A DNA stretch of 7,223 bases from Bacillaceae bacterium (lineage in GTDB: Bacteria > Bacillota > Bacilli > Bacillales_A > Planococcaceae), in NCBI GenBank assembly GCA_030149685.1, contig JASLGI010000099.1:1-7223 (forward strand), given 5' to 3'. The translations under genes and the position numbers were made by a program. Every line of letters begins with the position of its first letter. Position 1 is the stretch's first letter. Below the pieces are notes generated by a model. The model saw only the letters and a list, made by a program, of their open reading frames with translations, made no database searches and was not told where the DNA came from. Below are positions 4,643-6,853 of the stretch, one piece after another.

Positions 4643-5986
4643 GTGGAAATGATGCAAGAACGGATTCCTCCACATAATAATGAAGCAGAGCAATCAGTTA
4701 TTGGAGCGATCTTCTTAGATCCCGATGCACTAGTAACCGCAGCTGAAATGATTCGCCCGGAAGATTTTTATCGCCGGGCGCATCGCATTCTTTTTGAAAC
4801 GATGCTGACGTTAAATGATCGAGGCAACCCGGTCGATATCGTCACCGTTTCGGAAGAACTTGCTGCTACGAAGCAGTTAGAAAATGCGGGAGGCATTACG
4901 TATTTAACAGAAATTGCAGAGCGTGTCCCAACCGCAGCTAACGTTGAATATTATGCAAAGATTGTAGAAGAAAAAGCATTGCTTCGCCGTTTAATTCATA
5001 CAGCGACGGAAGTCATCGAAGATAGTTATACGCGCGAAGATGAAGTCGATGCAGTTATTGCCGAAGCAGAAACGAAAATGATGCAAGTATCAAACCGAAA
5101 AAATGTCGGAGATTTTCGCCATATCGGTGATGTGCTCGTTGAAACGTTTGAAAACATTGAAGCATTATATCAAAGCGATGGTGAAGTTACTGGTATTCCG
5201 ACCGGTTTTGATAGTTTAGATCGTATGACTGCAGGGTTTCAACGAAATGATTTAATTATCGTTGCTGCTCGTCCATCTGTTGGTAAAACGGCGTTCGCTT
5301 TAAACATTGCGCAAAACGTCGCAACGAAAAGCGATCGAAAAGTAGCGATATTTAGTTTAGAGATGGGTGCAGATCAACTCGTTCAGCGTATGCTTTGTGC
5401 AGAAGGAAATATCGATGCGCAAGTATTGCGTACGGGAGAACTTGATGAAGAAGATTGGCGCAAAGTGATGGTCGCTTCAGGTAGTTTATCAAATGCGGGA
5501 ATTTTCATTGATGATACACCCGGTGTTCGTGTAAATGAAATTCGTGCGAAGTGTCGTCGTCTACAACAAGAGCATGGTCTTGATATGGTTGTCATCGATT
5601 ACTTACAACTCATTATGGGTTCAGGAAAACCAGGTGAGAACCGTCAGCAAGAAGTATCAGAGATTTCACGTTCGTTAAAAGGACTTGCTCGTGAACTTGA
5701 AATTCCGGTAATCGCCTTATCTCAATTATCTCGTAGTGTTGAACAACGACAAGATAAACGACCGATGCTATCAGACTTACGGGAATCGGGAAGTATTGAG
5801 CAAGATGCTGACATCGTATCATTTTTATATCGTGAAGATTATTATGAAGATGACGTAGCAGATAAAGAAAATATTATTGAAATTATTATTGCGAAGCAGC
5901 GGAATGGTCCTACCGGGACAGTAGAGCTCGCATTTATTAAAGAATATAACAAGTTCGTCAATATCGAACATCATATGGGAATGTAA
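4643..5986 (+). CDS. dnaC: Replicative DNA helicase (DnaB family; named DnaC in B. subtilis)
   Basis: Hexameric ATP-driven 5'-3' helicase that unwinds DNA at the fork and partners with primase DnaG and the loader DnaI. The product is 447 residues (454 in B. subtilis). Residues about 8-105 are the N-terminal DnaB domain (PPHNNEAEQSVIGAIFLD), a linker helix region follows to about 180, and the RecA-like motor begins near GIPTGFDSLDRMTAGF. Walker A is RPSVGKTA with K215 and T216; the catalytic Glu is E240 in FSLEM; Walker B is VVIDYLQL with D319; the arginine finger region is KQRNGPTG with K418 and R420. All essential residues are intact. It is the last gene of the yybS-gdpP-rplI-dnaC cluster and is followed by a hairpin. 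GTG at 4643 is taken as the start, with ATG at 4649 or 4652 as alternatives differing by two or three residues. Because naming differs between species, the gene may also be labelled dnaB. Confidence 0.97.
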   Translation: MEMMQERIPPHNNEAEQSVIGAIFLDPDALVTAAEMIRPEDFYRRAHRILFETMLTLNDRGNPVDIVTVSEELAATKQLENAGGITYLTEIAERVPTAANVEYYAKIVEEKALLRRLIHTATEVIEDSYTREDEVDAVIAEAETKMMQVSNRKNVGDFRHIGDVLVETFENIEALYQSDGEVTGIPTGFDSLDRMTAGFQRNDLIIVAARPSVGKTAFALNIAQNVATKSDRKVAIFSLEMGADQLVQRMLCAEGNIDAQVLRTGELDEEDWRKVMVASGSLSNAGIFIDDTPGVRVNEIRAKCRRLQQEHGLDMVVIDYLQLIMGSGKPGENRQQEVSEISRSLKGLARELEIPVIALSQLSRSVEQRQDKRPMLSDLRESGSIEQDADIVSFLYREDYYEDDVADKENIIEIIIAKQRNGPTGTVELAFIKEYNKFVNIEHHMGM

Positions 5987-6024
5987 CGCAAGGGCCTATT
6001 GTGGATAGGATTTGCGTTCTTTCC
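5985..6024 (+). terminator. Terminator-like hairpin after dnaC
   Basis: AACGCAA (5985-5991, starting within the dnaC stop codon) pairs with TTGCGTT (6012-6018), extended by a G-U pair. After a small internal loop, CCTAT (5995-5999) pairs with ATAGG (6005-6009) around a five-base loop. The tail TTCTTTCC is only moderately T-rich, so termination may be partial. The loop and inner 3' arm contain a DnaA-box-like sequence at 6000-6008. Confidence 0.5.
6000..6008 (-). promoter_or_regulatory. Near-consensus DnaA box (8 of 9)
   Basis: On the - strand this reads CTATCCACA, differing from the consensus TTATCCACA only at the first base. It lies 27 bp before the perfect DnaA-box pair, in the same orientation as the right-hand box. 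It also forms part of the dnaC hairpin, so it may be coincidental. Confidence 0.4.
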
Positions 6025-6025
6025 A

Positions 6026-6054
6026 TTGAAAAAAGTTATCCACATGTGGATAAC
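6026..6054 (+). promoter_or_regulatory. Candidate sigma-A promoter for walRK
   Basis: TTGAAA at 6026-6031 matches the -35 consensus at five of six bases. Exactly 17 bp later, GATAAC at 6049-6054 matches the -10 consensus at four of six. Transcription would start near 6061, giving a leader of about 76 nt before walR. The palindromic DnaA-box pair occupies the whole spacer and the -10, so a protein bound there would block RNA polymerase. No better -35/-10 pair was found in the gap. Confidence 0.45.
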
Positions 6055-6057
6055 TTT
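6032..6057. promoter_or_regulatory. 26-bp perfect palindrome of two abutting consensus DnaA boxes
   Basis: The core TTATCCACATGTGGATAA (6036-6053) is one consensus DnaA box on the + strand (6036-6044) joined directly to a second on the - strand (6045-6053), with ACA ends meeting. The symmetry extends through AAAG on the left and CTTT on the right, giving 26 bp without mismatch. DnaA, the replication initiator, binds TTATCCACA with high affinity, so occupancy is likely. It may be a DnaA titration or regulatory site in front of walRK. As RNA it could form an 11-bp hairpin with a CAUG loop, but no T run follows, so a terminator role is less likely. Confidence 0.7.
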
Positions 6058-6124
6058 CGAAGGACAAACGTGCGCCCCTACAGAAAGAATGATAAAGTAA
6101 AAGAGGGTACACCCTACAAAAAGT

Positions 6125-6131
6125 GAGGTGA
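6125..6131 (+). promoter_or_regulatory. Ribosome-binding site that sets the walR start
   Basis: GAGGTGA matches the anti-Shine-Dalgarno region exactly over seven bases, and its GAGG core ends 8 nt before ATG at 6137. A GTG at 6128 falls inside this site and is rejected; ATG at 6143 is 14 nt away and less favoured. Confidence 0.75.
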
Positions 6132-6136
6132 AAGAG

Positions 6137-6853
6137 ATGTCCATGCAAGATAAAACGATTCTCGTCGTAGATGATGAAAAACCGATTGCTGACATTTTAG
6201 AATTTAATTTAACAAAAGAAGGTTTCGAAGTCCATTGTGCATATGATGGGGAAGAAGCTTTAGAAAAAGTAGATGAAATACAACCGGATATTATGCTGTT
6301 AGATATTATGTTGCCGAAACGAGATGGTATGGAAGTATGTCGTGAAGTTCGTAAAACGTACGATTTCCCCATCATTATGTTAACAGCAAAAGATTCTGAA
6401 ATAGATAAAGTACTTGGTCTTGAATTAGGAGCCGATGATTATGTGACGAAACCGTTCGGAACACGTGAATTAATTGCTCGTGTGAAAGCGAATTTACGTC
6501 GTCATTCAAAAGTAGCTCCAGAAGAAACGATCGAATCATCCGATGACATTGAAGTCGGACCATTAATTATTCAACCAGATGCTTATACTGTGAAAAAACG
6601 TGATGAAGTTATTGAGCTCACGCAACGAGAGTTTGAATTACTCAGCTATTTAGCAAAGCATATCGATCAAGTATTAACACGTGAGCATTTATTACAAACC
6701 GTATGGGGATATGATTATTTTGGAGATGTGCGTACAGTAGACGTAACGATTCGTCGACTTCGTGAAAAAATTGAAGATGAACCGAGCCATCCGAAAATTA
6801 TCATTACTCGTCGCGGAATAGGTTATTATTTACGTAGTCCAGAAGAGGAGTAA
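6137..6853 (+). CDS. walR: Essential two-component response regulator WalR (YycF)
   Basis: OmpR/PhoB-type DNA-binding regulator that, when phosphorylated by WalK, controls wall hydrolases and other cell-wall genes in Firmicutes. With the ATG at 6137 the product has 238 residues. The receiver domain (about 5-120) shows the acidic pair D12-D13, the phospho-acceptor D56 in LLDIMLP, T83 and K105 in the [10 protein letters not shown] segment. T104 corresponds to the Thr phosphorylated by the kinase PrkC in B. subtilis WalR (T101). The winged-helix domain (about 135-235) includes [14 protein letters not shown], the recognition region [25 protein letters not shown] and the wing RRGIGYYLR. Near identity to B. 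subtilis WalR across the receiver makes the assignment secure. It lies 150 nt after dnaC, with no purA between, and 5 nt before walK. Its own promoter is likely in the gap containing the DnaA-box palindrome. An upstream GTG at 6128 and a downstream ATG at 6143 are less likely starts. Confidence 0.97.

Follow-up and report, generated by a model that had tools for sequence, protein, structure and literature searches.

What is the role of a perfect palindrome made of two touching DnaA boxes that lies between the gene of the replicative helicase and that of the response regulator WalR? The question is raised by a stretch of DNA of 7,223 nucleotides, in the following called the window, and the best supported answer is that the palindrome belongs to a known class of element, a pair of DnaA boxes, present in a strict zero-gap form and at a new place. 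The window contains, in this order, a partial rpsF, ssb, rpsR, a gene for a DUF2232 membrane protein, a gdpP-type gene (named after its homologues), rplI, the replicative helicase gene, walR, and the start of walK. Since the helicase gene stops at 5986 and the likely start codon of walR, which is preceded by GAGGTG, is located at 6137, the gap between both genes comprises about 150 nt (5987-6136). It holds a first hairpin, which is probably the dnaC terminator or a remnant of one, and then the palindrome (Table 1). The stretch 5984-6024 with the first hairpin has a folding energy of -13.8 kcal/mol (z -2.84); the hairpin was not flagged by a terminator scan, and a search of the window against Rfam at gathering scores gave no match.

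Table 1 Features of the region between the helicase gene and walR (positions refer to the window)
Feature	Position	Strand	Basis
Replicative DNA helicase gene (DnaB type; dnaC of B. subtilis)	4643..5986	+	NCBIfam NF004384, 738.9 bits, cut-off 525
First hairpin (AACGCAA...TTGCGTT), short T tract	5985..6018	+	Inverted repeat search
Weaker third DnaA-box-like 9-mer CTATCCACA, one mismatch, within first hairpin	6000..6008	-	Box scan
Perfect palindrome, 26 bp, arms of 13, no gap	6032..6057		Inverted repeat search
Consensus DnaA box TTATCCACA	6036..6044	+	Exact match
Consensus DnaA box TTATCCACA, convergent, abutting the first box	6045..6053	-	Exact match
Extended -10-like word TGATAAAGT, probable walR promoter	6090..6098	+	TG[AG]TA[AG]AGT match
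walR (yycF) response regulator gene	6137..6853	+	NCBIfam NF040534, 441.1 bits, cut-off 340; start ATG 6137 inferred

Related genomes were ranked by the gdpP product, which also points to an uncultured relative of Sporosarcina as the source of the window. Among the best 120 of 7997 GdpP homologues listed, metagenomic copies reached 95-100%, followed by one relative at 81%, one at 72%, and a group at 64-69%, whose named members were nearly all from Sporosarcina, a member of the Caryophanaceae. The top-scoring genomes by GdpP were those designated G637 (72%) and G638 (68%); G688 reached 69%, but with a slightly lower score. For the helicase, the best match in the genome scan was 72%.

DnaA boxes were defined by the 9-mer TTATCCACA (TTWTNCACA), to which both boxes of the palindrome conform exactly. 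The two arms of the palindrome (6032-6044 and 6045-6057) are 13 nt each, 100% complementary and separated by a spacer of 0 nt; the core, an 18-mer at 6036-6053, consists of the two exact convergent boxes, and the symmetry runs 4 bp further on each side. The original prediction had described two exact, touching boxes within a perfect 26-bp palindrome flanked by dnaC and walR and had considered a chance origin improbable; the description proved correct to the base, the flanking genes were confirmed by the family models, and the estimates of chance point the same way. From base composition, 0.09 exact boxes are expected per window and 0.0018 per 150 nt, the 18-mer is expected in about 2e-7 copies per window, and zero-loop palindromes with arms of at least 13 are expected 1.6e-4 times per window; the palindrome is the sole one without a loop and with arms of at least 7 in the 7223 bp. 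When one-mismatch boxes are included, the window holds three, a number that 51 of 200 shuffles also reach and that is not above chance, and therefore only the exact pair is remarkable; the third box-like 9-mer may be due to chance. In a literature text search, the exact 18-mer had no occurrence as a text string.

Upstream of walR, the position of the pair is not conserved among the relatives read. The comparison that the original prediction itself had suggested, conservation of the boxes in the dnaC-walR gap, turned out negative in every one of them: a convergent pair was present in none of 19 walR upstream regions (200 nt each) of the window's family, a single one-mismatch box in one (20 loci were fetched, one of which lacked walR), and no DnaA box was found in the dnaC-walR gaps of G638 and G671. 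Together with the window, these two genomes are the ones in which dnaC and walR were found as direct neighbours (L250, L265); in the family loci read, purA (recognised from translations) or a gene for a secreted-looking protein usually separates the helicase gene from walR, and the product of the intervening gene in G637 carries G5 and Peptidase_M23 domains. In another order, that of Jeotgalibacillus, 2 of 30 walR upstream regions contained a single box and none a real pair; one locus (L153) passed the cut-off of three mismatches, but one of its arms is exact and the other carries all three, and it was rejected. In the 300 nt downstream of dnaC, a single box occurred in 3 of 109 loci, a set in which at least one genome is present twice and which, like the walR upstream regions, is a non-random sample of best protein matches from the searches or of loci from 20 chosen genomes. 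The isolated position invites the explanation that the pair is a functionless chance product or the neutral leftover of a rearrangement, as it is absent at the same place in the relatives read and the window lacks the gene that most of them have between dnaC and walR. In view of the expectation of about 2e-7 copies per window given above and of the exactness of both boxes, we consider this the least probable of the explanations discussed here.

The same arrangement recurs elsewhere in related genomes. Among 261 genomes of the window's family, a set that includes Sporosarcina, an exact convergent pair with a gap of 0-12 was present in 135, compared with 2 of 261 for the reversed control, and in the other order in 129 of 299, compared with 1 of 299; the divergent arrangement showed no excess in the family (16 of 261, control 16 of 261), the control genomes being counted by eye in all three tables. 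Of the 135 family genomes with the pair, 61 were listed, which are related because they are neighbours in the table, and 56 of these 61 have a gap of 0, i.e. the exact 18-mer. When 30 pair loci of the family were fetched, 26 had a gap of 0, of which 20 were located between jag and mnmE and 6 elsewhere, at least one of the latter inside a gene. Of the 30 loci fetched from the other order, 12 were found upstream of dnaA or next to rnpA, 6 at jag-mnmE, 4 at tsaC/ywlC, 2 at tsaD/gcp, 1 downstream of dnaN, and 5 at other places; a gap of 3 prevails upstream of dnaA and one of 0 at mnmE, and gaps of 2 or 3 occur at tsaC/ywlC and of 4 at tsaD. The places at dnaA, mnmE, tsaC and tsaD match DnaA-bound regions of B. 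subtilis as tabulated in PMC4447404 (Table 1). According to the same source, the jag-trmE gap of B. subtilis is among the most strongly DnaA-bound regions with only four boxes, and the trmE operon is described as directly regulated, apparently repressed, by DnaA (PMC4447404, PMC8203912). The jag-trmE site, through which DnaA regulates trmEF-rsmG-noc and which we compared by its description, is of the same kind as the element studied here, and the window's family has the 18-mer or a close variant in that gap; the copy in the window precedes walR instead.

The copies upstream of mnmE allow the sequence rule of a DnaA box to be set against that of a hairpin. Where a start codon could be identified (18 of the 20 jag-mnmE loci), the distance from the end of the pair to mnmE is 18-25 nt. 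In addition, jag-mnmE stretches were taken from 40 family genomes, 38 of which had been chosen because they lack the exact pair; in 39 of the 40, mnmE could be located. The 350 nt preceding mnmE contain a gap-0 pair with no more than three mismatches in 38 of these 39 genomes (L269-L298, L342-L381), with G638 as the exception, compared with 0 of 975 shuffles. In G688, for instance, a degenerate pair is kept at mnmE (L346), and in Jeotgalibacillus a degenerate zero-gap pair was found at jag-mnmE in two of three genomes searched. The columns of the 76 boxes follow the pattern T T A/G T N C A C A with eight exceptions, three each in columns 1 and 4 and one each in columns 6 and 7. The two arms differ in 27 of the 38 pairs, so that the symmetry is broken in these, although the sample is biased towards asymmetry by choice and genomes of the same genus are not independent; in the other 11 the arms are equal, and 9 of the 11 share one change in both arms (TTGTCCACA), a form that fits a hairpin equally well. 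The substitutions, analysed in the mnmE copies, thus follow the tolerance of the DnaA box rather than base pairing, and therefore the mnmE pair is to be regarded as a DnaA site and not as a conserved hairpin. By extension, the view of the original prediction that the boxes in the window are DnaA boxes rather than just a hairpin is well supported by sequence comparison: the gap-0 pair recurs at a locus known to be bound by DnaA, and the variants found there keep the box rule and often break the symmetry. To our knowledge, the strict zero-gap geometry upstream of mnmE is stricter than any arrangement known before.

The palindrome could nevertheless act as a transcription terminator or another RNA hairpin, the match to DnaA boxes being a by-product. 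This is suggested by the perfect symmetry, which extends beyond the boxes, by the nine mnmE pairs with the same change in both arms, and by the predicted folding, which amounts to -12 kcal/mol (z -3.55) for the plus strand and to -13.1 kcal/mol (z -4.01) for the minus strand with its subsequent run of T. However, an intrinsic terminator combines a GC-containing stem with a T tract. On the plus strand, the stem is followed by no more than CTTTCG, and the terminator scan did not report the site; six T stand in a row after the core stem on the minus strand, but there is no recognised gene to be terminated. The only long open frame on the minus strand across the gap (134 aa, 5971-6375, antisense to walR) has no family match and is probably not a gene. 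A terminator is a weak reading because no T tract is present on the plus strand, dnaC already has a hairpin of its own downstream, and the minus-strand frame is without a family match; moreover, the same 18-mer upstream of mnmE has mostly non-complementary flanks, and the arms of the variants there differ in the majority of genomes, in a sample biased in that direction. We therefore regard an RNA element as improbable.

A perfect dyad that is usually present as a single copy in the family genomes carrying it would also suit the operator of an unknown dimeric repressor, which shares the half-site of DnaA by accident. The half-site, however, shows the tolerance of DnaA (TT A/G T N CACA), and the convergent pairs of the other order are also found at dnaA (gap 3), tsaC/ywlC (gap 2 or 3), and tsaD (gap 4), all of which are listed as DnaA-bound in B. 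subtilis (PMC4447404), which makes such a repressor very improbable.

If the element is a DnaA site, its position relative to walR becomes of interest. The pair ends 36 bp upstream of the word TGATAAAGT, which by its likeness to the consensus we take to be an extended -10 element, and its centre would thus be located about 60 bp upstream of the predicted transcription start of walR. The pattern TG[AG]TA[AG]AGT, picked after inspection of these very sequences, occurs in 17 of 19 family walR upstream regions and in 23 of 3800 shuffles, and in 13 of the 19 it lies at -72 to -83 relative to the codons for VDDEKPI (window, -77); a plain sigma-70 scan of the window did not report the word. Because the pair is situated just upstream of this conserved promoter-like word, a regulation of walR is suggested. 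The WalR binding motif had two one-mismatch matches in the window, neither of them in the gap, a number that 99 of 200 shuffles also reach and that is not above chance.

The explanation that we favour, and that we consider about as likely as not, is that the palindrome is a DnaA double box which moved to walR or newly arose there and which most likely lets DnaA tune walRK. Two consensus DnaA sites that face each other with no spacer form a module normally placed upstream of mnmE in the family, and in the lineage of the window a copy stands upstream of the probable walR promoter instead, about 17-18 kb from dnaA as judged by synteny. DnaA would bind the double box as a pair and, once bound, would adjust transcription of walRK, upwards or downwards, with the cell-cycle level or activity of DnaA; the double box would also add slightly to DnaA titration near the origin. 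DnaA acts as a transcription factor at sites of this kind in B. subtilis, including the trmE operon, as reported in PMC4447404 and PMC8203912, and the functional link of DnaA to walR is put forward here as a hypothesis, not as a result. As for the origin of the copy, the two best-scoring relatives, G637 and G638, have no pair upstream of mnmE; G688, which is about as similar, keeps the degenerate one mentioned above. The absence at mnmE in G637 and G638, together with the presence at walR in the window, suggests that the site may have moved from mnmE or arisen anew at walR. An exact 18-mer in G637 (C19:42300) was considered as a relocated site, but it lies inside a SelO gene, where the strand reads YPHVDN, and was taken as a coding coincidence.

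The main rival is a pure titration site: the pair would sequester DnaA in the vicinity of the origin and leave walR unaffected. The proximity to the origin that the original prediction assumed was upheld, by synteny only: the start of dnaA and the end of the helicase gene are located at 71.5 and 53.4 kb in G637 and near 275.8 and 258.5 kb in G638, about 17-18 kb apart in both. Deletion of six DnaA-box clusters outside oriC is reported to cause early initiation in B. subtilis (PMC13220808, PMC11019786, citing Okumura 2012), and in G637 a cluster of seven boxes (five exact, two one-mismatch) is found some 5 kb past the start of walR, in the interval from walJ to rlmH. As in the oriC-proximal clusters of B. 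subtilis (yydA, ywlC, gcp, and others), the boxes of the window are intergenic, outside oriC and, as estimated from synteny, probably near the origin; the gap holds two exact boxes and one with one mismatch. In contrast to these loose clusters, however, the two strong boxes form a strict zero-gap dyad, and the eight most strongly bound regions of B. subtilis hold 4-12 boxes per 300 bp in Table 1 of PMC4447404, compared with two strong boxes and a weak one here. The place just upstream of the conserved promoter-like word also speaks for regulation, and we rate titration as the sole function as possible, if rather unlikely.

Facing boxes are also a feature of the E. coli elements DARS1 and DARS2, which, like the window, have two opposing DnaA boxes with their CACA ends towards each other. 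In a box scan of the two E. coli K-12 sites that we take, by their positions, to be DARS1 and DARS2, the convergent boxes are 5 bp apart at both and a third box follows 3 bp beyond. Since the pair in the window has a gap of 0 and no third box at that place, it was rejected as a DARS on architecture. We know of no counterpart of DARS in Gram-positive bacteria. Boxes I and II of DARS are described as opposed, with DnaA interacting head to head there (PMC8682772), and it is possible that the pair in the window works like DARS.

The proposed regulation of walRK by DnaA has a mirror image in S. aureus, where WalR directly controls dnaA according to PMC10746227: the two regulators are the same and the direction is opposite, as DnaA would act on walR in the window. 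A farther-reaching idea, which we hold to be doubtful, is that the zero-gap convergent double box constitutes a distinct operator for a DnaA dimer and not a seed for a filament, kept by the family at mnmE and moved here to walR, where it would rewire replication initiation to essential cell-wall control and close a loop with the WalR-to-dnaA arm; in this reading, DnaA molecules bound head to head to the double box might even exchange nucleotide, as at DARS. Wall growth and chromosome replication have to be coordinated in a cell, and through the paired site, replication initiation and the control of the cell wall may be coupled in the organism of the window; a walR promoter with a DnaA site would, if real, provide the return arm to the control known from S. 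aureus. Independently of this, the zero-gap geometry of the family offers a simple natural substrate for studying the binding of two DnaA molecules that face each other.

Several further box arrangements were observed in the course of the analysis. The seven-box cluster of G637 (L329, C19:45973-46272) is located downstream of the walR operon and is likely the counterpart of the yydA cluster of B. subtilis, and five one-mismatch boxes lie between rpsF and the gene of the GTPase YchF in the same genome (L330, C19:60138-60242). At one locus (L127), the same core is part of a longer palindrome, but this adjoins a run of N and was left out of the analysis. Among the fetched loci, a 26-mer identical to that of the window was found only in the genome G516 (L283, 1497-1522), between two unrelated genes. 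Finally, five family genomes have divergent boxes with 1 bp between them (TGTGGATAA-N-TTATCCACA), which at the two loci inspected (L340 and, by its likeness to L340, L338) are situated where the tsaC/ywlC (Sua5) gene begins.
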